From an uncultured Flavobacteriales bacterium (lineage in GTDB: Bacteria; Bacteroidota; Bacteroidia; Flavobacteriales_E; Vicingaceae): a DNA stretch of 64,000 bases. Below the pieces are notes generated by a model. The model did not search any database. It was not told where the DNA came from and saw only the letters and a list, made by a program, of their open reading frames with translations. A program made the position numbers and the translations under genes. The stretch lies in assembly GCA_905479915.1 (NCBI GenBank), contig CAJQOH010000035.1, positions 1-64,000 of the forward strand, given 5' to 3'. This document shows positions 38,057 to 52,741 of this stretch, one piece after another; the stretch's first letter is position 1, and every line of letters starts with the position of its first letter.

Positions 38057-38230
38057 TTAACTCAAATAATCCAATACAGCTTCTTTCAGTGCTACATCTC
38101 CTAAACCATCATTCAATTCGTTATAAGGGATAACAATAAAAGGTTGAGAAACACCATCTTTAGTGTGTTTTACACCAACCATTTTTACGCTCTCTTTTTC
38201 TTGAATAGCTACTTTTTGTATTTCAATCAT
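38057..38230 (-). CDS. Small 57-residue protein, last gene of the phage-like module
   Basis: Short ORF starting MIEIQKVAIQEKESVKMVGV and ending VLDYLS, with no membrane segment or Cys. It begins 9 bases after the stop of the upstream gene in a tightly packed minus-strand run, which argues that it is real. No family recognised. Confidence 0.55.
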   Translation of the reverse strand: MIEIQKVAIQEKESVKMVGVKHTKDGVSQPFIVIPYNELNDGLGDVALKEAVLDYLS

Positions 38231-38239
38231 AATTATCGT

Positions 38240-38692
38240 TTAATAAACTTCAGGTAATCCTCCGGACAATAGAACTTTAATCATTCCGGTTACTCCGCTT
38301 GCTTTTGATGTGAGGGCTTTTGCAAATGTACCTGGCCATCCATAAGAAGAAGCATAAGCACGTCCATTTATGTTGCTCGTATAAATGTTATCTCCTATAT
38401 TGACAATATCTACTGTCATTTTTACATCAATTATTCCGGCATATTGAATGGTTAATAATTGATCCTTTTCTCCTCCAACTTTTACGACACCTATAACATC
38501 TTCACTATAATAGGAATTAGTTGTTGTAACAGATAAAGGGTTGGTTTTATCAATAACTACAACATCTCCATATTCCAATAGCCCACCAGACCTATTGGTT
38601 AATTGGATTGTTCCAATTTCTTCAGGAGATGTTCCGCCACCATCAGTAGAAGTCCCTCCTTTAGTAATTCTATTTCGAGTTAAATATCTCAT
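38240..38692 (-). CDS. Beta-rich protein, possibly capsid/fibre decoration type
   Basis: A 150-residue protein has a Gly-rich linker (10-24) and then a beta domain: 'LLEYGDVVVIDK', 'EDVIGVVKVGG', 'LLTIQYAGIIDVKM' and 'GDNIYTSNINGRAYASS'. The strand order and the 'GDxxYTSxxxGRA' turn resemble DUF2190-type decoration proteins of phages, but the match is by eye. It lies with fibre-like genes at the distal end of the module. Confidence 0.6.
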   Translation of the reverse strand: MRYLTRNRITKGGTSTDGGGTSPEEIGTIQLTNRSGGLLEYGDVVVIDKTNPLSVTTTNSYYSEDVIGVVKVGGEKDQLLTIQYAGIIDVKMTVDIVNIGDNIYTSNINGRAYASSYGWPGTFAKALTSKASGVTGMIKVLLSGGLPEVY

Positions 38693-38697
38693 TCTAA

Positions 38698-39111
38698 TTA
38701 AGCCTGTGCTGTTTTGTAATATTGGATTCTAAGGACATGACTTTTACCTGTTTCAATACCAATTACCTGAAAATTATCAAGGCTTGTTTTACCAAACAGT
38801 TCCAATACATCTCCATCTCCAAAAGGAAGTCCTGAATCAGCAGTTGGAGCAGTTCCATTCTCTTTGTATCGGATTGCTCGTGCTTTGTTGGTCGCAGTAG
38901 CATTGATCTCAAAAAATACAGTAGCAGAAACTGCATTGTCGGGAACGGTAAGACTTTTTGCTTTAGTATCATCTACCGTTAAATCTTCATACCCATCATT
39001 AGTTTCCTCAATAGGTATCCGACCACGTTCTCCCGAAGTCCATAACATTAACTCCTCCAAATAATCTTCGGTGGTAGCAAAGTTTTGATGCGGATATGGA
39101 TTCTTTTTCAT
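38698..39111 (-). CDS. Phage-type beta-sandwich protein, fibre or receptor-binding like
   Basis: A 137-residue protein. After a helical start (1-50), residues about 55-135 show 'LTVPDNAVSATVFFEI', 'ARAIRYKENGTAPTA', 'GLPFGDGDVLEL' and 'HVLRIQYYK'. This is a pattern I know from the C-terminal domains of phage neck or fibre proteins. Its start is preceded by a copy of the CAGGCA-TGCCTG leader hairpin (39125-39148). Confidence 0.6.
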   Translation of the reverse strand: MKKNPYPHQNFATTEDYLEELMLWTSGERGRIPIEETNDGYEDLTVDDTKAKSLTVPDNAVSATVFFEINATATNKARAIRYKENGTAPTADSGLPFGDGDVLELFGKTSLDNFQVIGIETGKSHVLRIQYYKTAQA

Positions 39112-39124
39112 GTTATTTCTTTAA

Positions 39125-39148
39125 AATTATCTCAGGCATTGCCTGTTA
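39125..39148 (-). repeat. Leader hairpin repeat, copy A
   Basis: On the minus strand this reads TAACAGGCAATGCCTGAGATAATT; the palindrome CAGGCA/TGCCTG could form a stem. It lies 14 bases before the ATG of the 137-residue gene. It is identical over its 24 bases to copy B at 43051-43074. Confidence 0.75.
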
Positions 39149-39679
39149 TGCTGCTAATTTTCCTGTACGTTGATATTCCCGATAAAGGCTTGCTATGGTT
39201 TTCCCTCTTAAATTCTGAAAGTGGGGTTTATCTTTAATGGATTTCCATCTGCCTCCCCATTCCAATCCTAGAGCTTCTCCCATTAGCCCGATCTTATCCC
39301 AATTGGAATTTTTCCATAATGGTTTACCGTTTTTAAATTCTACTACATCTACAGCTCGTTTGTAATTGTGAGAGCTTTTACCACATCGGGCATTGGTTAC
39401 AATTTTACCAGGAGCTGTTCTTCCTTTGGCGTATAATTTATTTTGTTCAGCACAATCTCTGTGTGCTGAAATAACCCTTAATTCAATGCCTTTATCCCTT
39501 GCTCTGGAAAGCAGTTGCTTTATTTTCTTTCTGAATTTAGGTTCTAAAGAAAGTAGGAGTAAATCCGTTTTATAATCGAAATGCTCATATATTTTCCTGC
39601 GAGAAAAGTAAATACCAACACCTATTGCTACAACTGATGCAGCTACACCTATATACACGTATTTCTTTTTAATTTCCAT
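39146..39679 (-). CDS. Membrane-anchored M15 peptidase (endolysin type)
   Basis: A 177-residue protein has an N-terminal membrane helix (about 7-26) and an M15-type D-Ala-D-Ala/L-Ala-D-Glu peptidase domain. The zinc ligands fall in the 'SSHNYKRAVDVV' motif (SxHxxxxAxD) and the late 'DKPHFQ' His. 'VISAHRDCAEQNKLYAKGRT' matches phage CwlK-like enzymes. Most endolysins are soluble; the anchor here fits the membrane theme of the neighbouring genes, and it could act as a signal-anchor-release lysin or a particle-borne wall-cutting enzyme. Confidence 0.88.
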   Translation of the reverse strand: MEIKKKYVYIGVAASVVAIGVGIYFSRRKIYEHFDYKTDLLLLSLEPKFRKKIKQLLSRARDKGIELRVISAHRDCAEQNKLYAKGRTAPGKIVTNARCGKSSHNYKRAVDVVEFKNGKPLWKNSNWDKIGLMGEALGLEWGGRWKSIKDKPHFQNLRGKTIASLYREYQRTGKLAA

Positions 39680-39694
39680 CTTACTTTTTTCCTG

Positions 39695-39829
39695 TTATTT
39701 CTCTTTTTCTTTACAATTGCAATCTTTCTTTTTTGCTTTTCGAATAAGGTTAATACTTATCGAAATAATACTCAAGGTCAAAAATGTTCCTGAAAGCAAT
39801 AAGACGAGTTTGTTATCATTTTCATTCAT
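39695..39829 (-). CDS. 44-residue single-span membrane protein
   Basis: An ORF starting MNENDNKLVLLLSG has one membrane helix (about 8-28) and a strongly basic tail with 'DCNCKEK'. Its ATG overlaps the end of the preceding coiled-coil gene by 8 bases, and its stop lies 15 bases before the M15 gene, so it fits the operon exactly. It could be a lysis-related peptide or a small structural membrane protein. Confidence 0.6.
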   Translation of the reverse strand: MNENDNKLVLLLSGTFLTLSIISISINLIRKAKKKDCNCKEKEK

Positions 39830-40178
39830 TGTTTTGGGTTGTTGATTTGAGTTCATTTAATTTTCTTAACAGTTCTTTATTTTTCTTTTCCATCTGCTCT
39901 ACTTTTTTCTCCAAACATCGAATTTGCTTGCGTTGTTTTTCAAAAATTTCTTCCATTGCAGCGGTGTGTTCTTCGCTTTCTTTTACTCTTTTTTCCAATG
40001 TTTGCGACCATTGAACCCAATTACCAACGATACTATTTTGAGCAGTAGCATAAAGGTTGTTCGCTTCTGCAGACTTCAATTTCTTATCGCTTCGGTACTT
40101 GATTATAAGATCTAATATTTTCCAAAAACCTCCTGCACTGACAATAATTGTGATGAGTTTCCAAATTTCTATTTCCAT
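39822..40178 (-). CDS. Membrane-anchored coiled-coil protein
   Basis: A 118-residue protein has an N-terminal hydrophobic helix (about 5-25) followed by an uninterrupted charged coiled coil (about 55-112, rich in Glu, Lys and Gln). The topology resembles phage i-spanins or holin-associated proteins. It overlaps the next small membrane gene by 8 bases and starts 10 bases after the fibre gene. Confidence 0.65.
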   Translation of the reverse strand: MEIEIWKLITIIVSAGGFWKILDLIIKYRSDKKLKSAEANNLYATAQNSIVGNWVQWSQTLEKRVKESEEHTAAMEEIFEKQRKQIRCLEKKVEQMEKKNKELLRKLNELKSTTQNNE

Positions 40179-40188
40179 TTTTTAAAGA

Positions 40189-41535
40189 TTAAGATGGTGA
40201 AGCTTCGTTATAAGTGATGGGAAACTGAGCTACATACGGTTTGATATTAAAAAGCAATTCATCATTAGCATCAATGAACGTCCCGTAAAGGCTTACTTTA
40301 CCATTACTATCTAATGAATATTGAAATACTTCTCCTTTATTACTCACCAATGTTCCCGAAGCTAGACCAGTTGGATTATTTAATGGTTTAGGAAAATTTA
40401 ATACCCAAGCACTTACTAATCCAGCCCCTCCAGTTCGTTTTAATCGGATATCACTCACTAAAACCATATTGCCATTAACCACTGAATAACGGTTTCTCCC
40501 AGGGGTATGATACATAGTTGTTCCAATATGAGCTGCAGCAATGCTTAGTAGATTTTCTCTATTGATATAATTATCTAATCGGACTTTTAATTTTAAAGGG
40601 CTTACTGCTTTTTGGTCATCTGTTCCTACATCCACAATAGCTTGTGTAGCAATTTGTATTAATCCTGTTGCCAGTTCAGTAGCTATTTTGTTACTCAGTA
40701 ATGTGGCTAATTTTAACGGAGTAACTACCGTAGTATCATCTGTTCCAGTATTGACTAAAGTTTGTGTAGCAAGCTTAACAATCCCTGCTAAAGCTTCAGT
40801 AGCTTGTACTAAATTCGCTTGCATCACATTCCAATCTGCACCAACTGTAGCTTGTGTACCTCCTGCGTTATCATTTAAACAATGAATTACATCATTGGCT
40901 TGAACTTCAACTCCTGCAGCCCCTCCAATTTTACCTGCTACACTTACCGTATAAGCATCTCCTGAAAGTCCTACTGGGTAATTGGGATTGCTTGAACAAT
41001 CAATAAACCCTTTATTATCCCATAAACCTGTTACCTTATCGGCAACATAAGCAATCATTTTTTGAGGAGTAATTCCTGTTGTATTATTTGCGGGATCATT
41101 ACTTTCTGCAGTAGTAGAAAACTTAACTATTCCTGCTTGAGCTTCTGTAGCCGGATTAACAGAACTACTTGTTATTCCTGATGCAACTTGAAAGCAAGTT
41201 CCATCATAAATTAATAAATAATGAACCGTTGTATTGATTTCTCCTGCTTCAACGTCAACTAGTGCTCCTGCTCCTGTAATTTTTTGAATGGGAACAGCTC
41301 CTTTTCCATTTACATTCAAAGTAGCATTTCCGGTATTTAAATGATTAAATTTTACTTGAAGTAACAACCCTAATCGGTAAGCTTGTTTTAAAGGTGGGGT
41401 TAGAATCAATTCATAATCATCTGTTCCTCCTGTTGTACTTCCTACACCTCCTAAATTATTCTCTACGGGAAAATCGCCAACATAATTTATGTTGTTTAAA
41501 TTCACATCGCTTGTATAACCTCCTGTTGCTGTCAT
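40189..41535 (-). CDS. Phage tail-fibre-repeat protein
   Basis: This 448-residue protein contains tandem phage tail-fibre repeats: 'ATEAQAGIVKFSTTAES' (about 130), 'ATEALAGIVKLATQTLVNTG' (about 245) and 'ATGLIQIATQAIVDVGTDD' (about 290). Each is followed by a 'TPLKLA / SPLKLK' segment, as in the Phage_fiber_2 family. The C-terminal 120 residues look like a distal beta domain, probably the receptor-binding tip. No chaperone gene follows directly. It is the clearest virus-derived adhesin in the module. Confidence 0.85.
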   Translation of the reverse strand: MTATGGYTSDVNLNNINYVGDFPVENNLGGVGSTTGGTDDYELILTPPLKQAYRLGLLLQVKFNHLNTGNATLNVNGKGAVPIQKITGAGALVDVEAGEINTTVHYLLIYDGTCFQVASGITSSSVNPATEAQAGIVKFSTTAESNDPANNTTGITPQKMIAYVADKVTGLWDNKGFIDCSSNPNYPVGLSGDAYTVSVAGKIGGAAGVEVQANDVIHCLNDNAGGTQATVGADWNVMQANLVQATEALAGIVKLATQTLVNTGTDDTTVVTPLKLATLLSNKIATELATGLIQIATQAIVDVGTDDQKAVSPLKLKVRLDNYINRENLLSIAAAHIGTTMYHTPGRNRYSVVNGNMVLVSDIRLKRTGGAGLVSAWVLNFPKPLNNPTGLASGTLVSNKGEVFQYSLDSNGKVSLYGTFIDANDELLFNIKPYVAQFPITYNEASPS

Positions 41536-41539
41536 ATTT

Positions 41540-41959
41540 CTAATTCTTAATTACTAATACTGTCATTATTCCTAATCCAACTCCCATTAGTAGTTTATGG
41601 GTTTTACTTCTTTTTAATTTTCGTTCCTGAACATTGATGGTCTTATTCAACAAGACCATACTCATCTCTTGATTGTGAGAGATTTGTTCCATATGCCGCA
41701 TTTTTTGTTCTAAACTACCAACTACACTATCATTCACTTCAATCGTTTGGTCAAAAAGCATGATTAACTCATCTTGTGCTATTGTTATCGAATCACACCA
41801 TTCATTTGCTTCAATTCTCTGAGCAATTACTTTGCTTTGAGAAATGGTAAAACAAAAAATAGTATCATCATTCAGCTCTTGTACTATCGGTGTCAACCCC
41901 TGCGAAAAACTGGAACAACTTATCGTTAGTATAATGCCCAATAGCTTTAATTTTTTCAT
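41540..41959 (-). CDS. o-spanin-like secreted protein with coiled coil
   Basis: A 139-residue protein starts 'MKKLKLLGIILTISCSSFSQ', which can be read as a lipobox (TISC) or as a signal peptide cut after FSQ. A coiled-coil region follows (about 60-115), and a short hydrophobic C-terminal helix. It begins 92 bases inside the upstream gene in another frame, the layout of Rz/Rz1 spanin pairs. Lipidation is uncertain, and the C-terminal helix is unusual for an o-spanin. Confidence 0.6.
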   Translation of the reverse strand: MKKLKLLGIILTISCSSFSQGLTPIVQELNDDTIFCFTISQSKVIAQRIEANEWCDSITIAQDELIMLFDQTIEVNDSVVGSLEQKMRHMEQISHNQEMSMVLLNKTINVQERKLKRSKTHKLLMGVGLGIMTVLVIKN

Positions 41960-42227
41960 ATTTTATTTGATTTAAATTCTTAATCTTTTCTCCTTTTATT
42001 TCGACTAAATGTTTTAAACTATCCTGCTGAATTTTCAATAATTCGATATTGATATCTAATCTTTTATTTTTGGATAAGAGCGTATCGTTTTGAACTTTTA
42101 GTCCTTCAATTTCTTTAGAATAAATCGAAACATGTTGTTCTATTCCATTTTCATAGAAGAAGTAAAAACCGATTAGCATCAATCCAATCACTACAATTAA
42201 TATGGTATTACAGTTACTCACTTTCAT
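41868..42227 (-). CDS. i-spanin-like membrane-anchored coiled-coil protein
   Basis: A 119-residue protein has one N-terminal membrane helix (about 8-26) and a periplasmic coiled coil (about 35-95). It overlaps the holin-like gene by 4 bases upstream and the o-spanin-like gene by 92 bases downstream. Topology and order match the Rz protein of lambdoid lysis cassettes; sequence similarity is not claimed. Confidence 0.6.
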   Translation of the reverse strand: MKVSNCNTILIVVIGLMLIGFYFFYENGIEQHVSIYSKEIEGLKVQNDTLLSKNKRLDINIELLKIQQDSLKHLVEIKGEKIKNLNQIKYEKIKAIGHYTNDKLFQFFAGVDTDSTRAE

Positions 42228-42622
42228 TGAGGAGTATTATTAAATCGATCATAATAACCGTTTGCTGATGATTCCTGATTTACTGTTTTTGCTTGTAGCT
42301 TTTTTCCAATGTATTTGGTCAAACCTTCGAGAATAAGCTTATGGAATACTAAAGCAAATACAAAAGATTGAAAAAGACATTCTATTTTTTCAATGGTGTA
42401 ACCTCTAATAAAATATAATGCTACACCATAAAGCAATCCAATTATTGCAACCCTGTATTTTGTTTTTGATGTGATTTTGGTCAGCTTCTTTAAACCTCCT
42501 TTGATTGTTGTATGGTTAAAACCATAAGCAATAACTATAAAAGTGATGATGTACGCCCAATCTAAACCCGACACATAAGCTGTTAATTGATTCCAAATCT
42601 CTGTTGTTATTGTACTATCCAT
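42224..42622 (-). CDS. Holin-like three-helix membrane protein
   Basis: A 132-residue protein has three predicted membrane helices (about 17-34, 56-70, 82-100), a basic loop 'KKLTKITSKTKYR' and a polar C-terminus. Size, topology and position just before the spanin-like pair suggest a holin. No specific holin family is recognised. Confidence 0.55.
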   Translation of the reverse strand: MDSTITTEIWNQLTAYVSGLDWAYIITFIVIAYGFNHTTIKGGLKKLTKITSKTKYRVAIIGLLYGVALYFIRGYTIEKIECLFQSFVFALVFHKLILEGLTKYIGKKLQAKTVNQESSANGYYDRFNNTPQ

Positions 42623-42654
42623 CGTTGTTTGTTTTAATTAATAATTCGTTTTAG

Positions 42655-43032
42655 TTACCCAGGGAAAACAATGTTTTCAAATGGAGCTAATCCAGCCCGT
42701 TCTGTTATCTTCTTTTCTTTCATTTTAAGAGCCATCTTTCTTGTTCGTTTAGCTCGTTTTTGGCTTGTGATATTTCCTTGAGTATCTAATAAACCAAGCT
42801 TTAACCAGGTATAAGCCACTACTAATTCTAAATCGTTGTATTCCAATTTTTGAAATGCGACTTTCAAATCCTCTTTGTTCAATTCCTTTTTTTGTTTTTT
42901 TGCAGCTTCACTCCATTTCTTCAACAACCATTTAATCAATGTATTCTTACCAATAGGAGTGTTTGCAAAAGCAACATATCCCAAGCCTGCGAAAACAGAA
43001 ATACCGAATAACGTGATGGCTAACTTTTTCAT
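42655..43032 (-). CDS. Single-span membrane protein with helical domain
   Basis: A 125-residue protein has an N-terminal membrane segment (about 4-24) and a helical, Lys-rich body ('LNKEDLKVAFQKLEYNDLELVVAYTWLKLG'). It has no known domain. Its ATG lies 19 bases after copy B of the leader hairpin. It is part of the uninterrupted run of small anchored proteins. Confidence 0.65.
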   Translation of the reverse strand: MKKLAITLFGISVFAGLGYVAFANTPIGKNTLIKWLLKKWSEAAKKQKKELNKEDLKVAFQKLEYNDLELVVAYTWLKLGLLDTQGNITSQKRAKRTRKMALKMKEKKITERAGLAPFENIVFPG

Positions 43033-43050: not shown

Positions 43051-43074
43051 AATTATCTCAGGCATTGCCTGTTA
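43051..43074 (-). repeat. Leader hairpin repeat, copy B
   Basis: This is the same 24 bases as copy A (39125-39148). Here the palindrome also encodes the last residues of the 69-residue gene (GNA-stop) and precedes the next ATG by 19 bases, so it could couple termination of one frame to initiation of the next. Confidence 0.75.
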
Positions 43075-43267
43075 GTTGATCCATCTTTTCCATATTCTTA
43101 ACTACTCCACGTATTCCGAAAACCATCACGGTAATAACAAAGGCTGATCCTACCAAGTACATCGAAGTTTTTCGTAAAGTTTGGTCAGACATGGTTATTT
43201 TGATGTCTGTTTTTAAACCTTCATCACTGAACACATTATCCAAATAGTCTTTTAATGTCTTTGCCAT
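43058..43267 (-). CDS. 69-residue tail-anchored membrane protein
   Basis: A small protein with a polar N-terminal half and one membrane helix (about 35-54) near the C-terminus. No family recognised. It starts one base after the peptidoglycan-binding gene's stop. Confidence 0.6.
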   Translation of the reverse strand: MAKTLKDYLDNVFSDEGLKTDIKITMSDQTLRKTSMYLVGSAFVITVMVFGIRGVVKNMEKMDQLTGNA

Positions 43268-43268
43268 A

Positions 43269-43658
43269 TCAAGCCCTTTTTAATTGTTCAATATCACTTG
43301 AAGAAGCTGTTGTTTTTCCTAAGTGCTTTTTAACTCCTGCTTGTGTTTTATCTCCATATTTTCCATCTACACCATCTTTATTACTTCCACTAGTTCCTAA
43401 ATCTGCCCCTAATACATGAAGTATCTTTTGTAATGCAATGACATTCTTACCACAACTACCATGTTTTAAAGGGTAATCATCTCCGTATTTACAGAACCCT
43501 GAACTTGATGGAGCTGAACTACCACTTTCGGTGATGTCCTCATTTTCTTTTTTCTTCTTGAAATAAAAATATGCTCCTGTCCCTAAGCCTGCTAGAAGCA
43601 AAATTCCTCCACCTATCCAAAGTGCATTGTTCTCTATTTTGAATGTATCTTTTTCCAT
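43269..43658 (-). CDS. Membrane-anchored peptidoglycan-binding protein
   Basis: A 129-residue protein has one membrane helix (about 12-32), a Ser/Gly linker and a PG_binding_1-like domain (about 62-125, 'GKNVIALQKILHVLGADLG' and 'DGVDGKYGDKTQAGVKKHL'). It probably tethers the particle or complex to the cell wall. Preceded by a diverged copy of the leader hairpin. Confidence 0.75.
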   Translation of the reverse strand: MEKDTFKIENNALWIGGGILLLAGLGTGAYFYFKKKKENEDITESGSSAPSSSGFCKYGDDYPLKHGSCGKNVIALQKILHVLGADLGTSGSNKDGVDGKYGDKTQAGVKKHLGKTTASSSDIEQLKRA

Positions 43659-43684
43659 TTTTTAGTATTTAGTCTTCAACTATT

Positions 43685-43708
43685 AATTATCTCATTCATT
43701 ACCTGTCA
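43685..43708 (-). repeat. Leader hairpin repeat, diverged copy C
   Basis: Plus-strand AATTATCTCATTCATTACCT aligns to copies A and B with a few substitutions that break the palindrome but keep the AATTATCTCA half. It is 27 bases before the ATG at 43658. Confidence 0.5.
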
Positions 43709-44113
43709 TTATTCGACTACAACCGCATCCTCTCTAACATAGCCCTCTGATTTTCCATTAACAGGTTGGTCTAAACTGATTTTGTACCAGAAATAACCAT
43801 CTTCGCCTTTTACTCGGCTTAATATGTTTCCTACCGGATTCGATTTCACTTGCTTAATCAGGTTGTGGGAAAAATCAAAACGTCCCCAATTCTCATTATC
43901 TACTTTTGGAGAACTACGAACATTGACATAGCCTTCAGAACCATAATTAACTTGTTTGCTCATTAATTTTTGTTCTTCTTTCTTTTTCTGTTTGTTGCTA
44001 CTCGTAGTATATGATTTCTTCTTAAGCAGTTTGAAAACACCAAAACCTGCTCCTGAAAGAACTACTGTAGCAATCCCTGCTATCATCAAATATTTTTTTG
44101 TTTTTTCCTCCAT
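43709..44113 (-). CDS. Membrane-anchored bacterial SH3-like protein
   Basis: A 134-residue protein has one membrane helix (about 9-29), a basic linker and an SH3_3-like domain starting 'YGSEGYVNVRSSPKVDN' and ending 'GKSEGYVREDAVVVE'. Such SH3 domains bind cell-wall peptides. It starts one base after the stop of the upstream gene. Confidence 0.75.
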   Translation of the reverse strand: MEEKTKKYLMIAGIATVVLSGAGFGVFKLLKKKSYTTSSNKQKKKEEQKLMSKQVNYGSEGYVNVRSSPKVDNENWGRFDFSHNLIKQVKSNPVGNILSRVKGEDGYFWYKISLDQPVNGKSEGYVREDAVVVE

Positions 44114-44114
44114 A

Positions 44115-44588
44115 TTAGTAGCTGTTAATGATGTCTTTTATTCGTTCCATTTCGCCTTTATCATCCAAGTAATAAGTTATGTATTCAGCTAAACTTTTCT
44201 TGTATTTAGCCGTAAACATTCGAGCAATTAAGGAGAGATTATCAGCACTTCCTGCTTCTTCCAAAACAGAGTAGAAGCCTCCTTCATCATCGTTGAATAC
44301 TCCTCCTGCATCCTTTATCTGTTTGGCTAACTTTTTTGCTCTATCATGAGAAATACTCACTTTACTTGAGCGGGAATAATTAGGATCAAAACCTTTGTAA
44401 TTCATAATATCTCGCATCTTTTTTCCTTTTTTACAATCTGCGATACCTGTGGCACAAAGAACTGGGCGTACAACACCAAAGTAGGTTAGTCCTAAACCAA
44501 GAAGAACCACACCACCAATAACATAAGGAGTGGCTTTGTTTTTTGCCAATCCTTCTGCTGCTTTTGCTCCTGCTATTGCACCTACCAT
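44115..44588 (-). CDS. Membrane-anchored helical protein, faintly annexin-repeat-like
   Basis: A 157-residue protein has an N-terminal Ala-rich segment and one membrane helix (about 20-40). A helical C-terminus (about 80-155) reads like an annexin-type repeat ('NDDEGGFYSVLEEAGSADNL' then 'FTAKYKKSLAEYITYYL'). The resemblance is by pattern only and calcium ligands are not assured. Position suggests a structural or envelope role. Confidence 0.55.
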   Translation of the reverse strand: MVGAIAGAKAAEGLAKNKATPYVIGGVVLLGLGLTYFGVVRPVLCATGIADCKKGKKMRDIMNYKGFDPNYSRSSKVSISHDRAKKLAKQIKDAGGVFNDDEGGFYSVLEEAGSADNLSLIARMFTAKYKKSLAEYITYYLDDKGEMERIKDIINSY

Positions 44589-44600
44589 TTCTTTTAACTA

Positions 44601-44783
44601 TTAATTGATAATTTCATCCATTGTTTCTTTAACCTCTGTTTTGGTTAAACCATTTTCCTTTAAAAAGGCTTCCAATCGACTTTTTACTTGATCCTCTTTC
44701 TTTTTCATTTTTCCCTTGTCGTATTTGATATAAATCTGACGACTTAACCAAAACCCAACTGCTAGTGTGATAACTGTTCTCAT
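44601..44783 (-). CDS. 60-residue membrane protein
   Basis: A short protein with an N-terminal membrane segment (about 2-17) and a charged helical tail ('KKEDQVKSRLEAFLKENG'). No family recognised. It is 12 bases from the next gene in the run. Confidence 0.55.
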   Translation of the reverse strand: MRTVITLAVGFWLSRQIYIKYDKGKMKKKEDQVKSRLEAFLKENGLTKTEVKETMDEIIN

Positions 44784-44807: not shown

Positions 44808-45293
44808 TCAAAAAATGTTCTTTTCTGCTACTCCGATACCTTCTAGCCATCTAGGAACATTGAAATGGGGCATTTCAACTCCATCAAGTGCCGGAACTTG
44901 ATTCAATCCAATGACAATTAAATCGGGATTTCTTAATAGGTGGTATTGTACATACACCTCCAAAGTCTCTTTTTGTTCTTTGGTTCGGGTGTCCCATTCT
45001 TTCTCATCATCTTTAGTTCTACCACCAACAAAGGCTACATATTTGGCTTGCCCGGACAACCCATCAATGCCTTGTGAGATTCCCCATAAATCCACTTCAT
45101 TCGGGCTGCTTTCAGGTATGATATTGATTAATTCGCCATCCAATGAAATGAGATCATCAATTCTCGGACGGTTTAATCCCAATCCATCTAAATGAATGGG
45201 ATTTGTATGATGCTCAATAACATCTGCTTTTGTAATTTCTATCCCTCCTGGGGTATTGGTGTTGACTATAATCAGGTAACTTAATTTTTTCAT
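44808..45293 (-). CDS. Degenerate N-acetylmuramoyl-L-alanine amidase (probable pseudoenzyme)
   Basis: This 161-residue protein aligns by eye along its length to phage type-2 amidases of Bacteroidota: 'YLIIVNTNTPGGIEIT' for the zinc His strand, 'LISLDGELINIIPE', 'AKYVAFVGGRTKDD', 'DTRTKEQKETLEVYV' and 'MPHFNVPRWL'. At the catalytic positions the usual residues are gone: no His in the first strand, no 'GYHY', 'GLNQVP' in place of 'GHRDFP', and Met-Pro-His in place of Cys-Pro-x. It therefore probably binds peptidoglycan or plays a structural role without cutting. Confidence 0.65.
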   Translation of the reverse strand: MKKLSYLIIVNTNTPGGIEITKADVIEHHTNPIHLDGLGLNRPRIDDLISLDGELINIIPESSPNEVDLWGISQGIDGLSGQAKYVAFVGGRTKDDEKEWDTRTKEQKETLEVYVQYHLLRNPDLIVIGLNQVPALDGVEMPHFNVPRWLEGIGVAEKNIF

Positions 45294-45352: not shown

Positions 45353-45784
45353 TTATTCGTTTTCTAGTCTTCTAAAACCTAATAGTTGTGAAGCTTTATA
45401 GGCTCGAATACATACTTGATTGCTTTGATTTCCTCCTAAACAATAGATGTATTGTTCATCTTCTGAATGATTGATGTATATGGCTACGTGTCCTTTCCAA
45501 CTTGTAGGTTTGTCTCTCCAAAAAATGACCACATCTCCAGTTTCAGGAGTTTCAATTTCTTCTCCAACTTTAAGCCATGATCTTGCATTTAATTTCCCTG
45601 AACGAACAAGGGATGCTTTTTTAGCACACCAATTCAAGAAAATGGAACACCAAGCTGTTTCATCAGCTACAATTCCTCCATATCCTATATCTTTCGAGTA
45701 AGCAACAATAGTTGGATTGTGTTGTTTCCCTTGTATTTCTTTTACTCCATATTGGGAGAGTGCTATGCTTAATAGTTTATTCAT
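45353..45784 (-). CDS. TIGR02594-type peptidoglycan hydrolase (CHAP/NlpC-like)
   Basis: A 143-residue protein matches the phage TIGR02594 pattern: 'SQYGVKEIQGKQHNPTIVAY', 'DETAWCSIFLNWCAKKA' with the likely catalytic Cys, 'ARSWLKVGEEI', 'GDVVIFWR', 'GHVAIYI' with the His, and 'LGGNQSNQV'. No signal peptide is seen. It should cleave the stem peptide or amide bond of the wall. It lies one base after the propeller gene. Confidence 0.85.
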   Translation of the reverse strand: MNKLLSIALSQYGVKEIQGKQHNPTIVAYSKDIGYGGIVADETAWCSIFLNWCAKKASLVRSGKLNARSWLKVGEEIETPETGDVVIFWRDKPTSWKGHVAIYINHSEDEQYIYCLGGNQSNQVCIRAYKASQLLGFRRLENE

Positions 45785-45785: not shown

Positions 45786-47699
45786 TTAATTGGTTTTTAT
45801 AATTGTTTTATTGTTCTTCTGTATTGATTTTGAAGAAACTTGATGATTATCACCGGACATTGCCCGATAAGATTCAAACTGTTTGAAATACACCAATAGG
45901 GTAATGGTTTGTAGTCCTGCTATTTTAAAGCCCCAACTTGTTTTACCATCTATTACTGTTCCCTCTAAGTCTGTTAATTCAGAAACATTCAAGAAATTTT
46001 GAGGGCTTTTATAATTTTCGTGGGAAATAGGAGTTGTTGTTCTTGTTCCTGTAGGAGTTTCTTCCATAAAATGAAGCACCTTAAATCTTTCTTCTCCTGA
46101 CATTACCCATTTTGTATGTTTGACAATAGCAGGGTTGTATAAGAAATTTTGAGATTTGTGAGCATAATCTTCGCTAATAGTGATACTGTTACTTTGAGTA
46201 GCATAACCAATGAGGTTAACCTGATCTGCTGATGTATCTGAAATGAAGAGTTGATTATTCGCTTGATTAATCGCAAAACCAATGTTCACATTCCCTTTGC
46301 TAATTGTATTTCGAATAGACTTATCAGGAGCAATTACTGTAAAAGTTTCATCTGCTCGATTGCCTACATATAAATAATTGTTGTTGGTATTGAAAACACT
46401 TTTATATGGGCTATTTCCTGTTGCAATGGGAGGGAGTAAGTTATGTGTATTGGCTTCAATTGGATATATTTCATTGCTTCCAGTTGTAACCACATACATT
46501 TCTTCGTTAACAGGATGGTAAGTAATGGAAACAGGAGTAGTGCCTACGCCTGCTATTGTTGTTGTTAAGTTATCTGTAGCATCAAATACACTAACGGTAT
46601 CATCACTTGAATTGGCAACATAAATTTCTCCAGTAATGGGATTGATACCTACACCTAAAGGATCTGTTCCTACGGCTAAAGTTGTGCTAACACTTTCTGT
46701 GTTGGTATTGATTACTGTTACATCATCTGAAAATAAGTTAGCAACATACAGTTTATCGTTAATAGTATTAAAAGCAATGTCTATTGGACGAACCCCAACA
46801 GCAATAGAATTAGTTACGTTATGAGAAAGGTCAATAACACTCACTGTATTAGAAACTGAACCCACTACATAAACTTTCCCATAATTGGGACTTGCCGTAT
46901 TTGAGTTGACTGCTATGGCTACGGGAGAATTAAAGCCAGGCATTAATGATGGTTGTAGCTCAATCAAAGTAACCAATTGCCCTGTAGAATCTATTACAGA
47001 AACATTGTTGCTCAATTGGTTAGCTACATAAGCTAATCCATTAGCAGGATTAATAGCTATTCCTTGAGGATGAGCCGGAGAACCTCCGGTGGTAAATATT
47101 GGATCTGAATAATCAACGGTATAACTAATTTCATGATCTTCTACATCTGTTGGCAATGGAGGGCTTACAGAAAGTCCTTTGTTCATTCCCCAAAGACTAA
47201 TTACTCTTTCTTCAGTAGAAGTGTTAGTAATGGTAATTTGTGTTTTATTAAACTCCTTGAGTAACCACTTGTAAAAGGCACTATACCTTGTGGGTTGTTC
47301 TTTGTGTATTTTTTGAATAATTTTTGGGAAAGCTGAACGGGTAATATTTTTTCCGGTAGCTAACATATTTTTAGCAGTCCTTTTTTTCTGTTTTTTCGCT
47401 AATTCATCATTAGAAACATCTATCACTCCTTGTTTTGTTCCATAGCGTTTTAAGTCTTTTAAGAACTGTACTTTTTTACGTTCATTTAAAGGGGTGAGAG
47501 CTGCTTGAATCCGCCCGTTACTAACGGATATAAAATCATCTTCGAGTTGTTCTCCATGATTTTGTTCTGTTTTATCGTTTTGATTTTCTTCTTTTTTTTC
47601 TGAATCCTCTTTAGAATTTTTTGAACCAATAGCCCACGCTACTCCTACACCAATGGCGGTAAAAGTTGCTAATAGTCCTATTTTAGTTCCGTTATTCAT
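45786..47699 (-). CDS. Membrane-anchored YVTN beta-propeller protein
   Basis: A 637-residue protein has an N-terminal membrane helix (about 7-24), a charged linker, a helical part (about 60-150) and then about seven 40-residue YVTN-type blades (about 205-500, for example 'KLYVANLFSDDVTVIN', 'EIYVANSSDDTVSVFD'). A final beta domain follows (about 510-610). YVTN propellers occur in archaeal surface-layer proteins and in adhesins. In this module it is the largest protein and a candidate spike or receptor-binding component. Confidence 0.78.
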   Translation of the reverse strand: MNNGTKIGLLATFTAIGVGVAWAIGSKNSKEDSEKKEENQNDKTEQNHGEQLEDDFISVSNGRIQAALTPLNERKKVQFLKDLKRYGTKQGVIDVSNDELAKKQKKRTAKNMLATGKNITRSAFPKIIQKIHKEQPTRYSAFYKWLLKEFNKTQITITNTSTEERVISLWGMNKGLSVSPPLPTDVEDHEISYTVDYSDPIFTTGGSPAHPQGIAINPANGLAYVANQLSNNVSVIDSTGQLVTLIELQPSLMPGFNSPVAIAVNSNTASPNYGKVYVVGSVSNTVSVIDLSHNVTNSIAVGVRPIDIAFNTINDKLYVANLFSDDVTVINTNTESVSTTLAVGTDPLGVGINPITGEIYVANSSDDTVSVFDATDNLTTTIAGVGTTPVSITYHPVNEEMYVVTTGSNEIYPIEANTHNLLPPIATGNSPYKSVFNTNNNYLYVGNRADETFTVIAPDKSIRNTISKGNVNIGFAINQANNQLFISDTSADQVNLIGYATQSNSITISEDYAHKSQNFLYNPAIVKHTKWVMSGEERFKVLHFMEETPTGTRTTTPISHENYKSPQNFLNVSELTDLEGTVIDGKTSWGFKIAGLQTITLLVYFKQFESYRAMSGDNHQVSSKSIQKNNKTIIKTN

Positions 47700-47700
47700 T

Positions 47701-48519
47701 TTAATATGATGTTGCTTTAGCGTTTGAATGTTCTTTATTCATTTGCCTCATTGAGGCCTTGTATCGATCAATGAAATCAATAATATCCTTGGTACGAACC
47801 ACTTGCCCTTTACCAATAGTCTCAGGATGCAATCGGAACACTTTTGTTGCTGCATATACCGCTTCAATAGTTGGATAACCCAAATCCAAGTACAGTTTTA
47901 ATGCAGCTAAATCTGCAGGCTTTTCCTGACGAGTAGGTAGGGTAAAGTGTTGGCGTTCATGTAATAGAATGAATAACCTTACTGGAACAGTAAAGCGTTT
48001 GAATAAATCTTGTGCTACTTGATGTCTGCCTGTAACTCTGTGCGTTCGAGCCGGTGTAACCATCACTTCCCCTAACTGTCCTTTTATTTGGGGTAGGTAA
48101 TGAACGAGAAATTGATAATCTGGACTGTGATAAAAACCTGTTTTTACATAGCCTGCTTTTTGACTAAAATTTTCCGCAAATTTGATAAAGTCGTGCATAT
48201 GCTGTTCTGCCCAAATTTTAGCAGGAGGCATTTCCTCTACTTTAAATTTTTCTACTTGAAAAGCATTATCACTTTTGCTGTATTTGTCAATGAGTTCAAC
48301 GGATAATGTTTCAGGAGAAATGGGCATCGGAATAATAATTTCCCGATAAGCTTCTCCCTCTTGAAAATCACTAGAACGAAAAGGTACTTTTCTTCGAAAG
48401 TAATGAGTATTGTATCTTGTAGCATCATAAGCTTTTATTCCTAAATGAAAAGGAGTAAATGCCCGTATGCCAATACGGATTCTAAATCGTTTTTTATTTG
48501 AAGGTACAGGTATGACCAC
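47701..48519 (-). CDS. Putative HExxH metalloprotease-like protein
   Basis: A 272-residue protein starts with GTG at 48519, as no ATG is available. The N-terminal 95 residues are beta-rich and the rest helical. His187-Glu188-x-x-His191 ('LLHERQHF') is a zincin motif, followed by 'RQEKPADLAALKLY', where Glu199 or Asp203 could be a third ligand. A maturation protease for the coat proteins is an attractive idea, but the motif alone is not proof. It lies two bases from the propeller gene. Confidence 0.6.
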   Translation of the reverse strand: MVIPVPSNKKRFRIRIGIRAFTPFHLGIKAYDATRYNTHYFRRKVPFRSSDFQEGEAYREIIIPMPISPETLSVELIDKYSKSDNAFQVEKFKVEEMPPAKIWAEQHMHDFIKFAENFSQKAGYVKTGFYHSPDYQFLVHYLPQIKGQLGEVMVTPARTHRVTGRHQVAQDLFKRFTVPVRLFILLHERQHFTLPTRQEKPADLAALKLYLDLGYPTIEAVYAATKVFRLHPETIGKGQVVRTKDIIDFIDRYKASMRQMNKEHSNAKATSY

Positions 48520-48576: not shown

Positions 48577-49008
48577 CTATTTACTGTTAACTGACAACTT
48601 TTTTATCGCCTGATTCTTTCGATAACGACTATATCCCCACGCTCCAATTGCAAGGACTGCTATTCCACCAATGATGATGACTTCGGTTGGAATTCCTTTA
48701 TCTTCTTTGGCTGTTTTTTTGGCTTCTTCTTCCTCTTTAGAGTGTCCCATTCCTACCTTAAAATCGCTAGGTTCATCACTTGGTTTGATGAAGTCTTTGA
48801 CTGTTCCTACTGTTCCAACAATTCCCGCAGCACCTCCAATATCTTGATAACTTTGACCTATACTTGCCCAAAAAGCTCTCCGTTTCTTTTTCCTTGCTTC
48901 TTTTTCTGCTGCTGTTTTCTTTCCAAACAACTTTTTAAAAAAGTAGTCATACTCGTAATCCTGTTCTTCCCTTTTACCGTTTAAGTATTCTATTTCGCCT
49001 GTAATCAT
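48577..49008 (-). CDS. Tail-anchored protein with amphipathic Gly-rich segment
   Basis: A 143-residue protein has an acidic start, a basic cluster (about 30-45), a Gly/Val amphipathic stretch ('GGAAGIVGTVGTVKDF') and a C-terminal membrane helix (about 107-125) with a basic tail. No family recognised. Preceded by a copy of the GGAG leader hairpin. Confidence 0.6.
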   Translation of the reverse strand: MITGEIEYLNGKREEQDYEYDYFFKKLFGKKTAAEKEARKKKRRAFWASIGQSYQDIGGAAGIVGTVGTVKDFIKPSDEPSDFKVGMGHSKEEEEAKKTAKEDKGIPTEVIIIGGIAVLAIGAWGYSRYRKNQAIKKLSVNSK

Positions 49009-49085: not shown

Positions 49086-49313
49086 TTAAACAATCATCAT
49101 TACTCGTAATGTTGAACCATTGACAGTAAAAGGAACTTGTGGATAGCCTTTCCCCACAAATGGATATGATTTTGCTTCTCCAGGGGGTAAATCCACTCCA
49201 TTTACATTGGCAATTTGATTGCCTACATTTTTGATAGCCCCGAATAAAAATCCTTGTGGTAAATTTCCATCTGCAGCATAATCTTGTTCGGTAACTTCTG
49301 CTAGTATGTTCAT
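49086..49313 (-). CDS. Small beta-rich protein
   Basis: A 75-residue protein ('LPQGFLFGAIKNVGNQIANV', 'VDLPPGEAKSYPF', 'GSTLRVMMIV') has no membrane segment or signal, looks like a compact beta domain, and belongs to the packed run. Could be a minor coat or tip protein; no family recognised. Confidence 0.6.
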   Translation of the reverse strand: MNILAEVTEQDYAADGNLPQGFLFGAIKNVGNQIANVNGVDLPPGEAKSYPFVGKGYPQVPFTVNGSTLRVMMIV

Positions 49314-49352
49314 CTTTTTAGTTTAAAGTTGAAAAGTTCAATGTTTAAAATC

Positions 49353-49376
49353 AGGAGCTAATCTTATTCTTAACTC
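49353..49376 (-). repeat. GGAG-type leader hairpin, copy 2
   Basis: GGAGCTAATCTTATTCTTAACTCC, a close relative of copy 1, again with TTCATTATGTAT following. It precedes the ATG at 49313 by 39 bases. The two copies conserve the stem more than the loop. Confidence 0.55.
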
Positions 49377-49398
49377 CTTCATTATGTATGCTCAATTA

Positions 49399-50169
49399 CT
49401 AAGCTGCTTTAGTAACTACTACAGGCTTTTTGTTAGCACTCAAAAGAACAACTCCACCAATAATGACTACTGCAGCAATTCCTCCAATAATCATCATGTT
49501 ATTGTTTCCTGATTTTTCATCTCCTTTACTAGCAACTGATTTATTCATTTCAGCTCTACGTCTTCGATCTTCTTCCTCTCTACGTCTTCTATCAGCTTCT
49601 TCACGCTCCCTTCTTCGTCTGTCCTCGGCTTCTCTTCTTCTGCGGTCAGCTTCTTGTTGTTGTCTTCGTCTGTCAGCTTCCATTTGTCGCATTCTCGCAT
49701 CCATTTCTGCTTTTGCACGAGCTGCATTGGCTGCTGCTGCCGCTGCTGCGGCATTTCCACCACCACCGCCACCACTACTAACGGATTTTTTTCCTCCTCC
49801 TCCAAACAGTCCTCCCAATGCTCCTAATGCTCCTTTAGCTACACCGCCTATCAACCCACCTAAGAACTCATCCTCATCTGCTTGATTGAACAAAGCTCTA
49901 TGGCTTTCTAAAGCCATTATTTCAAGTCCTTTATTTTCTAAATGAATAGCAAGCAATCGCTCTAAATCTTTATTGAATAAAGCGTTACGTTCTCCTAACA
50001 ATTCAATAATTTCATTGATTAGGTCTTTCCTTTTAGGTTTAAAAGAAAAAACAACCCCATGCTTGGCTAACAATTTTTTAACGGCAACAGGTTTAGTTAA
50101 AATTAGATGTGTAATCAATTCCAACACATCGTTTTCTTTTTTGGTGTATTTATCGTTATAGTTTTTCAT
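49399..50169 (-). CDS. Tail-anchored protein with Arg-rich coiled coil (paralogue set member 1)
   Basis: A 256-residue protein has four parts. An N-terminal helical domain (about 14-80, 'KKLLAKHGVVFSFKP...LFNKDLERLLA') resembles the next two proteins. A Gly-rich amphipathic stretch follows ('FLGGLIGGVAKGALGALGG'), then an Ala-rich then Arg/Glu-rich single helix (about 140-215), then a C-terminal membrane helix (about 226-245). Gly-rich membrane-active stretches and tail anchors are typical of proteins that line a membrane. No enzymatic motif. Confidence 0.65.
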   Translation of the reverse strand: MKNYNDKYTKKENDVLELITHLILTKPVAVKKLLAKHGVVFSFKPKRKDLINEIIELLGERNALFNKDLERLLAIHLENKGLEIMALESHRALFNQADEDEFLGGLIGGVAKGALGALGGLFGGGGKKSVSSGGGGGGNAAAAAAAANAARAKAEMDARMRQMEADRRRQQQEADRRRREAEDRRRREREEADRRRREEEDRRRRAEMNKSVASKGDEKSGNNNMMIIGGIAAVVIIGGVVLLSANKKPVVVTKAA

Positions 50170-50219
50170 ATCCTACTTTTTAGTTTCTAAGTTTTAATGA
50201 TTTGTGAATTACAATCCGC

Positions 50220-50852
50220 TTATGTTGCTATTGCTAATGGAACTGCTTTACTTTTTTTAATTTGATAAATTGCTATTCCTGTTAACAGAGCTGCAACTGC
50301 CATAACTCCCATAGTGCCAACGACTTTTAGCCCATTTGACTGCTTTCCATCAGCTTGACCTTCTTCTTTTTCTTCTATTTCTTTATGGGTTTGGTAGTTG
50401 CCCATACTTTGGAGGCTTTCCTGTTTCCCTTTTTGTTGTATCAATTTGATATTGTTTGTAGCAAGACCCTTTTGAAAGGTTTTCTTCATTGAAGCTGCAA
50501 TAATCTGTTCCGCACTAGGTTTTACTGCTAAGTTTCGAGGTCGGGAAAATTTTATTAATGCACTAGGAACAAATGAATCATTGTTATCAGGGATAACTTG
50601 TGCTGCAAATAACAGAGCCAAATCATAATTAAACTCATTGTTTTTCTTGCTCATTGCCAAAATAGTAGCATCTGCTAATGCAGAATGGTTGGGTTGATCA
50701 GAAAGTGGAACACCATATCTTCTTAATAAACCCGCTAATTCTTCGGGTTTATCCGATATTACGATACCAAGTAACCGAAACAATGCTTTGGATTCCTCAT
50801 CCAGTGTTACAGGAGTTTTTACTTTTTTATGTTCTTCTGTTATTCTTACCAT
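50220..50852 (-). CDS. Tail-anchored protein (paralogue set member 2)
   Basis: I start at the ATG at 50852, two bases after the upstream stop, instead of a TTG at 50882 inside that gene. This gives 210 residues. Residues about 20-87 ('LAGLLRRYGVPLSDQP...NNEFNYDLALLFAAQ') share the helical domain of the neighbouring 256-residue protein. The C-terminus has one membrane helix (about 178-197) and a short basic tail. Confidence 0.65.
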   Translation of the reverse strand: MVRITEEHKKVKTPVTLDEESKALFRLLGIVISDKPEELAGLLRRYGVPLSDQPNHSALADATILAMSKKNNEFNYDLALLFAAQVIPDNNDSFVPSALIKFSRPRNLAVKPSAEQIIAASMKKTFQKGLATNNIKLIQQKGKQESLQSMGNYQTHKEIEEKEEGQADGKQSNGLKVVGTMGVMAVAALLTGIAIYQIKKSKAVPLAIAT

Positions 50853-50853
50853 T

Positions 50854-51489
50854 TTAGTTACTGCTTTTAAATGCTGAACCAATTAATATTCCCGTAACCA
50901 AAATGACACCTGCTATAGCAAGTTCGCTTTTAGCAATGTGTTTACAGAATGAATTTTCTTCGGGCTTTTCTTCTTCTTTTTCAGCAATATTCATTCGTTG
51001 CCGGAGTTCATTCCATACAAGCTGAACTTCATCAGCTAGTTTACTGTCCTGTGGGTTTTGATTGGCTTTCTTGAATATATCCTGATAATATTTTTCTAAT
51101 TCAGTAGTATTCATTTCTATGAGTTGGTCTAAGAATTGACCAATATCAGTAGTTCCAGTAAAATTAACATGTCCACATCCTCCACAATAATTGTCTTCAG
51201 GGAGATAGCTATGATTGCCACATCCTCCACAAAAATTATCTTCACTAGGTTGTGCTAATTTTAAAATAGCTCTTTTATCGGGGTGTATTAGAATCAGGTC
51301 TTTAATAACTTTTCTGCCCTTTTTCTTAACCAACAGTTTTACCGTATCAACTAATCCATGAATATCTTTAGGTACTTCATAACCATAGTCATCAACCAAC
51401 TTTCTAGCTTCCTTTTGATTGCCATACACGATATAAGCTATCTTGTTTTGAGCAAATCGGGAACGTTTAATATGTTTATTTTTTCGCAT
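50854..51489 (-). CDS. Zinc-ribbon tail-anchored protein (paralogue set member 3)
   Basis: A 211-residue protein opens with a Lys/Arg-rich start and a weaker version of the same helical domain (about 20-75, 'ARKLVDDYGYEVPKD'). Two 'CGGCG' knuckles follow (about 88-110), forming one or two zinc ribbons, then a helical part and a C-terminal membrane helix (about 190-206). It is the first gene after the hairpins that follow the coat-like gene. Confidence 0.65.
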   Translation of the reverse strand: MRKNKHIKRSRFAQNKIAYIVYGNQKEARKLVDDYGYEVPKDIHGLVDTVKLLVKKKGRKVIKDLILIHPDKRAILKLAQPSEDNFCGGCGNHSYLPEDNYCGGCGHVNFTGTTDIGQFLDQLIEMNTTELEKYYQDIFKKANQNPQDSKLADEVQLVWNELRQRMNIAEKEEEKPEENSFCKHIAKSELAIAGVILVTGILIGSAFKSSN

Positions 51490-51511
51490 TAGATTTTACA
51501 GTTTTTTATCG

Positions 51512-51584
51512 GTGGGGATTCCCCACTACTTGTTGTTAACCCAAAACAGCCAAAGAGAGAGTGGATTACCCTTACTTTGGCTGT
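51512..51584 (-). terminator. Two hairpins after the coat-like gene
   Basis: A perfect 10-bp inverted repeat ACAGCCAAAG/CTTTGGCTGT (51546-51555 with 51575-51584) and GTGGGG-ATT-CCCCAC (51512-51526) lie between the coat-like gene and the next gene of the run. The first is followed by TTTT in the minus direction. Together they could end most transcripts after the coat-like gene and leave the rest at lower level. Confidence 0.55.
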
Positions 51585-51636
51585 CTTTATCTTTCTCAAA
51601 CAAAGCCTTTTGCTAAGGAAACTGCTTTGTGATTTT

Positions 51637-52503
51637 CTATCTTCTTCTAACCAATCTTCGAGGTCTTCCTACAGAGTATCTTCTAGGCATTGGTCTTGGT
51701 CTTCTTCTCCTTACTACTCTTCTTTTTCTTGGTTTAATTCCAAAAGCCATAGATTTTCTTTTTCTCAACAAATCAATCTGTGGTAATCCAGTAGTTCTAG
51801 GAACAGTAGATAATTCAGCGACATTGTTCCCTTTTAACAGGTTACCCATGTTCGCTCTAGCTTTTACTGTGAAGGTAAATACCAAGGTTACTCCATCTTT
51901 CACAGTTACCCTTAACGAATCTTGACCAGTAACATTCATTTCGAAGTTATCATCGTCAATTAAAGTTTGGGTAAAGTTTTGTGGGGATGTTGCATTTCTT
52001 GGTTGATACACTCTTTCAGTATTACTACCTGCTGCTGTTCTTTTTACTACTTTCAACACATGGTCAAATTGTAAAGGATCAGAAACAGATAATTTCATAC
52101 CCCCAATCTTAAATGGGTTGGCTTTGGATTCTTCACGAACCTCTTTATGTGAACTTTCCTCTACAATAACGGTTACTCCTGCAGGCTGAGCTGCTTCTTC
52201 ATTTGCCCCAAATAAAACTGCTTGGGCATCTGCTCCTGAAGTATTTTTTACAACAACAGTAAGTGTTCTGTCATTCGGGTCTATTCGACCAATTGACGAG
52301 GATTTGTAATTGTCATATACCGCATCCATTCCAGGAGCTGCTTCTACATATTCCATTTCCTCTTCATACTCTTCATCGTAACTATCTTCATTGCCATCAA
52401 GTCCTGTGTCGAAGTCATCTTCATCATAATCTCCATTGAAATCATCATACCTGTCTTCGGCATCGTCCTCATAGTCTAATATTTCGTCATCAAAATCTCT
52501 CAT
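51637..52503 (-). CDS. Putative major coat-like protein, acidic N-terminus and Arg-rich C-terminus
   Basis: A 288-residue protein has three zones. Residues 1-58 are strongly acidic ('DDEILDYEDDAEDRYDD'). Residues about 70-225 are beta-rich without a signal peptide ('DRTLTVVVKNTSGADAQAVL', 'SLRVTVKDGVTLVFTFTV'). The last 45 residues are packed with Arg ('PRKRRVVRRRRPRPMPRR'), like nucleic-acid-binding arms of small virus coat proteins. Position near the start of the operon, with hairpins behind it, suggests high expression. The coat assignment is inference; no fold search was done. Confidence 0.6.
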   Translation of the reverse strand: MRDFDDEILDYEDDAEDRYDDFNGDYDEDDFDTGLDGNEDSYDEEYEEEMEYVEAAPGMDAVYDNYKSSSIGRIDPNDRTLTVVVKNTSGADAQAVLFGANEEAAQPAGVTVIVEESSHKEVREESKANPFKIGGMKLSVSDPLQFDHVLKVVKRTAAGSNTERVYQPRNATSPQNFTQTLIDDDNFEMNVTGQDSLRVTVKDGVTLVFTFTVKARANMGNLLKGNNVAELSTVPRTTGLPQIDLLRKRKSMAFGIKPRKRRVVRRRRPRPMPRRYSVGRPRRLVRRR

Positions 52504-52530
52504 GATTCTAAATTTTAAGTGTTAGTAAAT

Positions 52531-52557
52531 AATTTTCTCAGGCTTATTTGCCTGTAA
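52531..52557 (-). repeat. Leader hairpin repeat, copy D
   Basis: AATTTTCTCAGGC-TTATTT-GCCTGTAA keeps the CAGGC/GCCTG stem of copies A and B with a longer loop. It lies 28 bases before the ATG of the coat-like gene. Confidence 0.6.
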
Positions 52558-52582
52558 TGGGTTCTTCAAATTCTGTAGAACC

Positions 52583-52741
52583 TTATTTTTTGGACGTAGT
52601 TTTAGTGTCCTTTTTTTGAGCCAACTTTTTTGCTTTGGCTTTATCCAATTGTGGCTTTACTACAAATACTCCTAATGCTGTTCCTGCTGCTAATAATCCT
52701 AGTCCTACAGGTAGGCATATTTTCCAATCAATGTCTTTCAT
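52583..52741 (-). CDS. 52-residue membrane protein, first gene of the module
   Basis: The ORF begins MKDIDWKICLPVGLGLLAAG, has one membrane helix (about 9-28) and ends in a Lys-rich tail. It is the most upstream gene of the minus-strand run and matches the build of the other small anchored proteins there. Confidence 0.6.
   Translation of the reverse strand: MKDIDWKICLPVGLGLLAAGTALGVFVVKPQLDKAKAKKLAQKKDTKTTSKK

Follow-up and report, generated by a model that had tools for sequence, protein, structure and literature searches.

What kind of system is encoded by a closely packed block of genes at positions 38057 to 52741 of a 64,000-nucleotide stretch of contig CAJQOH010000035.1 (hereafter the window), which comes from an uncultured Flavobacteriales bacterium of the Vicingaceae? 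A sequence-only reading had proposed an undescribed virus-derived, membrane-rich module unlike a tailed prophage, a tailocin or a contractile injection system, and our analysis supports that proposal. The idea that the module stands alone is not supported: the block forms the late part of a more extensive integrated element, which has a perfectly co-occurring Zot-type ATPase. We conclude, with a probability of about two in three, that the block is the late operon, for virion and lysis, of a tailless temperate virus that is integrated in the genomes of marine Bacteroidota; the virus would be large, apparently of an undescribed kind and probably membrane-containing.

Elsewhere in the Bacteroidota, 22 loci encode relatives of a 288-residue coat-like protein of the block (Aquimarina, Flavilitoribacter, Splendidivirga, Fulvivirga, Owenweeksia, Vicingaceae and metagenome-assembled genomes), the recurring loci covering the orders Flavobacteriales, Cytophagales and Saprospirales. 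The synteny check proposed with the initial reading came out in its favor: the block genes keep the same order in up to 22 loci, wherever the contigs extend far enough, which is far beyond chance, and the flanks of these loci mostly differ from genus to genus. The genes are under purifying selection, the ratio of non-synonymous to synonymous substitution rates (dN/dS) being roughly 0.01-0.2, figures that exclude a 637-residue propeller protein. With the window's genome included, the gene for a zincin-like protein of the block is present in 6 of 46 genomes of the family and 6 of 395 of the class, one of the latter matches being merely a distant relative; the coat gene is present in 1 of 395 genomes of the phylum.

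A search with a 189-residue ATPase of two short proviruses, described below, recovered a family of P-loop ATPases of 310-345 residues from the block-bearing genomes. In the host family its profile and the block occur in exactly the same 6 of 46 genomes, a coincidence with a chance of 1 in 9.4 million (~1e-7), a figure that is somewhat optimistic because the genomes are related; the ATPase is also found in 13 of 16 further carrier genomes. In all 19 loci with both genes on one contig, the ATPase gene shares the strand of the coat gene and precedes it by 3.5-56 kb (median 11 kb). The window's genome encodes it at 72843-73769 of the same contig (C35), 20.3 kb from the coat gene and beyond the window's end, and the protein passes the Pfam cut-off for Zot (PF05707). 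The earlier remark that there is neither packaging ATPase nor integrase is true of the window, but outside it the element has a candidate packaging ATPase and, in some genomes, a recombinase. A PDB sequence search with the ATPase gave no match. Around the ATPase gene, many of the 16 genomes share genes for a 152-residue DnaA-C-like protein, an N6-methylase, a ~1400-residue SNF2 helicase, a MoxR-type AAA ATPase, a DUF7192 protein, a glycosyltransferase and a PAPS-reductase-like protein; we take the methylase/SNF2 pair to be reminiscent of DarB-like anti-restriction proteins. The identity matrices of the ATPase, an early protein, the coat and the zincin-like protein correlate across ten elements (Mantel r 0.41-0.73), as would be expected of parts that mostly travel together, shared host ancestry also contributing.

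Certain relatives show the limits of the element. Features of an integrative element, for which a site-specific recombinase at one end and empty sites in related genomes are expected, were found for the relatives in A. algicola, A. latercula and UBA2669. The last of these has a large serine recombinase at its far end, and in two congeners the flanks are joined where UBA2669 holds 78 kb, one of the junctions having an N gap. About 37 kb of this insertion is not common to the other elements, suggesting that the site may be a hotspot with several islands. The UBA2669 contig encodes very large secreted or RHS-like proteins of 1500-2800 residues at ~20.9-57.8 kb (L032 and L165); they belong to the tRNA-Leu insertion that also holds the element and are not shared by other elements. 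The second copy in A. algicola spans ~44.3 kb, with an M15 gene at 16.05 kb on one side and, on the other, a serine recombinase gene that ends at tRNA-Arg; in A. latercula the serine recombinase is likewise at the far end beside tRNA-Arg, and in both species the similarity to the host ends exactly at the 3' end of the tRNA-Arg gene. No att repeats were found at the ends; a 10-mer near the right end in A. algicola was rejected as such a repeat, being inverted and within chance. The window's contig ends at 88,740, inside the early block.

The block itself has 27 open reading frames (ORFs) of 52-637 residues, all on the minus strand and nearly gapless, where about 24 packed one-strand genes had been claimed. 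A Kyte-Doolittle scan found a single hydrophobic anchor in at least 14 of the proteins, several of them C-terminal, in agreement with the dozen or more predicted (the anchors of 43269-43658 and 44601-44783 were also judged by eye). GC content is 32-38% within the block and 26-31% for ~13-37 kb of the window. In the direction of transcription, with the evidence used in brackets (HMM, hidden Markov model; AF2, AlphaFold2), the features are:

51637..52503, minus: coat-like protein, 288 residues (22 relatives, alignment A1, AF2 core model, VIA-align)
50854..51489, minus: 211-residue C-terminally anchored protein with the cysteines of a zinc ribbon, paralogous with the 220- and 256-residue proteins (HMM family, alignment A6, anchor scan)
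49399..50882, minus: tail-anchored proteins of 220 and 256 residues, paralogous with the 211-residue protein (HMM family, anchor scan)
49086..49313, minus: 75-residue soluble conserved protein without anchor (alignment A5)
48577..49008, minus: 143-residue tail-anchored protein (HMM family, anchor scan)
47701..48519, minus: 272-residue zincin-like protein, HExxH and AD motif invariant, with a homologue in small proviruses L063/L064 (alignments)
45786..47699, minus: 637-residue coat paralogue with YncE-type beta-propeller inserted in the core and N-terminal anchor, likely spike (profiles, HMM family, alignment A2, anchor scan)
45353..45784, minus: CHAP-domain peptidoglycan hydrolase (profile searches, alignment)
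44808..45293, minus: amidase-related protein, zinc ligands apparently degenerate (phrog_822, alignment)
43058..44783, minus: small N-anchored proteins, including SH3-like, peptidoglycan-binding-like and a 69-residue protein common to L063 (profiles, HMM family, anchor scan)
41540..43032, minus: 125-residue anchored protein, 132-residue two-anchor (holin-like) protein and overlapping spanin-like pair (profiles, HMM family, anchor scan)
40189..41535, minus: tail-fibre-like repeat protein, putatively receptor-binding (profile match)
39146..40178, minus: endolysin-like M15 peptidase with N-terminal anchor, plus two small proteins with anchors (profiles, anchor scan)
38057..39111, minus: block end, with a 137-residue protein (relative in L064), a 150-residue protein and a 57-residue ORF shared with UBA2669 (profiles, locus comparison)

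Among the parts of the block, the M15 peptidase (PF13539, 6.6e-12), the CHAP hydrolase (PF05257, 6.8e-7), the YncE/NHL beta-propeller (~1e-6) and the tail fibre (PHROGs, 1.4e-23) are solid by profile search, while the peptidoglycan-binding and SH3 matches fall under Pfam's cut-offs. The spanin-like set is weak by profile (phrog_739, 0.004); 41868-42227 and 41540-41959 nevertheless form an overlapping gene pair of the Rz/Rz1 type, with an inner-membrane anchor and a lipoprotein-like signal. The 150-residue protein at the block end scores slightly below the phage cement cut-off, and most other block proteins had no match in the profile searches. Scattered Walker A motifs in the late genes are not conserved and were rejected. 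Just outside the block, 37204-37976 holds a RadC-like gene and a zinc-finger-like ORF; as RadC is also found near the Splendidivirga element, these genes may be the element's edge or cargo.

The beta core of the coat-like protein is strongly conserved, and in all relatives the protein has an acidic tail at its N terminus and an Arg-rich one at its C terminus. Its full-length AlphaFold2 model is poor (predicted local distance difference test, pLDDT, 57); the model of the core alone is better but modest, and has nine strands in ~170 residues forming one jelly roll at low confidence (mean pLDDT 65). The best PDB matches of this core are viral jelly rolls with Z of 6-7 (cowpea mosaic virus, PRD1 P3, CCMV [cowpea chlorotic mottle virus], BMV [brome mosaic virus] and STIV [Sulfolobus turreted icosahedral virus]), nucleoplasmins and TNF-like folds being mixed among them; a Foldseek search of BFVD gave low TM-scores only. 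The model supports the jelly-roll class, not membership of any single family. The 637-residue protein is a paralogue of the coat, the two forming one HMM family, and the core strands flank its inserted propeller. It clearly exemplifies the conversion of a capsid domain into a putative receptor-binding spike. A PDB sequence search with the coat/spike alignment returned propellers only. The record MT836048.1 (L053), labelled 'Bacteriophage sp.' and from a faecal virome, matches the propeller protein; by its genes it is a bacterial chromosome fragment, without any block gene, and was discarded as a phage relative.

The profile of the zincin-like protein also picked up two short proviruses:

L063:3719-19508 (G629:C81): provirus
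L064:4386-19800 (G035:C227): provirus

Like the element, they have an HExxH protein (homologous to the window's 272-residue protein, hhalign 2.8e-8 and 2.5e-7), a related Zot-type P-loop ATPase of 189 residues, small tail-anchored proteins and lysins in a similar late layout. Unlike it, they are of roughly 14-15 kb and have Rep or helicase-like genes of their own, with an SSB and a tyrosine integrase by tRNA-Leu in L063; their coat family is unrecognised (26% identity between the two, no phage match), and no homology between it and the block's coat was detected. L063 and the single-stranded DNA (ssDNA) Cellulophaga phages have distantly related Rep proteins, and the 189-residue ATPase is present in six more genomes of the class. 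The two proviruses probably belong to a second group of Bacteroidota viruses that has not been described. That the zincin-like protein, the 69-residue protein and the ATPase have relatives in proviruses with Rep, SSB and integrase counts in favor of the temperate tailless virus.

Between the ATPase and the coat gene lies a slot whose content is different in each element examined, with defence cargo in every one; hence, the genes from 53241 onwards are most likely cargo of the same element:

53241..64000, unstranded: cargo slot within the window, with AbiEi/AbiEii, DUF2779, GmrSD-type, GHKL ATPase/REase (restriction endonuclease) II-like, DUF2130 and Lamassu LmuB (profile and defence-system matches)

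The slot runs on to ~72.3 kb of the contig, LmuB crossing the window's end, and its defence genes comprise AbiEi/AbiEii, a GmrSD-type enzyme, which Pfam calls GmrSD and PADLOC Orf5/HEC-06/SspE-like, Lamassu LmuA/LmuB and a pair of type III restriction-modification genes. Other elements carry a Hachiman-like HamB, a GajB-type helicase and several candidate systems called by PADLOC.

Taken together, the coat and its charged tails, its spike-like paralogue, the lysins, the ATPase and the large number of anchors would fit a membrane-containing virion. The element would begin at the tRNA end with the serine recombinase and switch genes, followed by an early block of glycosyltransferase, N6-methylase, SNF2 helicase, MoxR-type ATPase, DnaA-C-like protein and Zot-type ATPase, and then by the exchangeable defence cargo and the late block. 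The recombinase would excise it and host enzymes would replicate the DNA; the single-jelly-roll coat would assemble over a membrane vesicle studded with single-anchor proteins, into which the Zot-type ATPase would package the genome. The propeller-bearing paralogue and the fibre protein of the presumably infectious particle would bind the host, and the hydrolases and spanin-like pair would open the envelope at entry and lysis.

Several observations weigh against this reading. The coat has no relative in IMG/VR (2.9 million contigs), INPHARED or PLSDB, which is odd for an active virus, and scans of IMG/VR with the coat, zincin-like, 75-residue and both ATPase families gave no match. The coat model is of low confidence (Z under 8), the ATPase could have a role other than packaging, neither a polymerase nor a clear replication initiator was recognised, and no recombinase was found in several carriers (G065, G070, G072 and the window's genome). 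The absence from viromes, the missing polymerase and the recombinase-less carriers make a domesticated or gene-transfer-agent-like state possible in some lineages, above all for the first Aquimarina copy, which A. algiphila and A. algicola both have at one site, between flanks that they share. Such a particle, its mobility lost and its machinery kept by the host, would also fit the strong purifying selection; as a general explanation we consider it unlikely, given the patchy occurrence within the family, the two copies in some species, and other copies with recombinase, tRNA-end insertion and swapped cargo. The ATPase co-occurrence and the recombinase at the far end make domestication a rival and not the default reading.

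The defence cargo of all elements examined and the lack of an identified polymerase might instead point to a satellite or defence-island element with its own coat, whose replication or release depends on a helper virus. This is improbable for an element that encodes its own coat, spike, lysins, fibre and ATPase, has no apparent helper and, at 44 kb, is large for a satellite. A cell-envelope machine without relation to virions would account for the many anchors, and non-viral proteins, nucleoplasmin and TNF-like folds among them, can have jelly rolls too; the linked ATPase, recombinase, lysins and fibre, and the genes in common with proviruses, render it still harder to sustain. Tail-fibre repeats and endolysin matches would be expected of a tailed-prophage remnant with its head and packaging genes elsewhere. 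Yet neither Pfam nor PHROG yielded a sheath, a portal, a terminase or an HK97 coat among the late or early proteins scanned, and a tape measure was likewise not found in the block; the sequence-only reading had seen no terminase, portal, sheath or tape measure either. The block also had no match to sheath, tube or baseplate genes of contractile injection systems or tailocins. The linked ATPase is Zot-type, and the weak 'terminase' PHROG matches, confined to the P-loop part, were dismissed, leaving such a remnant scarcely credible.

For the temperate tailless virus we thus prefer, we lean, with rather less assurance, towards a new high-rank lineage of membrane-containing Bacteroidota viruses of at least 44 kb, with a single-jelly-roll coat, a coat-derived propeller spike, Zot-type packaging ATPase, SNF2/methylase early genes and an exchangeable defence island separating these from the late genes, and not represented in virome collections. 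If so, such a genome would widen the cargo range of this kind of virion lineage and reveal a kind of virus missed by current virus finding; the open-access literature yielded no such Bacteroidota elements. Carrier isolates exist in Aquimarina algicola, A. latercula and A. algiphila.

The element would work like the described tailless viruses, its membership in any of them not being established. It resembles the Helvetiavirae/Simuloviridae, of 16-19 kb with two single-jelly-roll coats, an internal membrane and temperate members (PMC12642351), in having two proteins with the same coat-type domain, here a coat and a paralogue with an inserted domain, the fold of the coat domain being modelled at low confidence. 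Those viruses, however, infect halophilic archaea, show no detected sequence relation and are smaller than an element of at least 44 kb with a Zot-type ATPase, a defence slot and a putative membrane. FLiP and the PhiCjT23-like prophages of Flavobacterium (Finnlakeviridae) share Bacteroidota hosts, a membrane and a jelly-roll coat, with temperate relatives (PMC9719478, PMC7654751), the membrane being predicted here and the coat fold modelled at low confidence; FLiP-like viruses nevertheless have small ssDNA genomes without packaging ATPase (PMC5894146, PMC9719478). FLiP ORFs gave nothing above noise against the block, the coat query had no phage match, and FLiP homology was rejected, the weak matches being of the kind given by membrane segments. 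For comparison with the Bamfordvirae (PM2, PRD1, FLiP), which have a double-jelly-roll major coat protein and a packaging ATPase of the FtsK/HerA type, the element offers a coat core tentatively modelled as one jelly roll and a P-loop ATPase that matches Zot PF05707. The tailless Vibrio prophages (Vinavirales/Autolykiviridae-like) are likewise integrated and have defence genes in a variable locus (PMC11630473), Vinavirales being of 9-12 kb (PMC9502842); they differ in their size of 12-15 kb, in lacking a detected coat or ATPase relation and in the methylase/SNF2 early genes of our element. Thus, among the described tailless membrane viruses and prophages of prokaryotes compared here, with genomes of roughly 8-19 kb, the element stands out by its size, about three times that of the tailless prophages.

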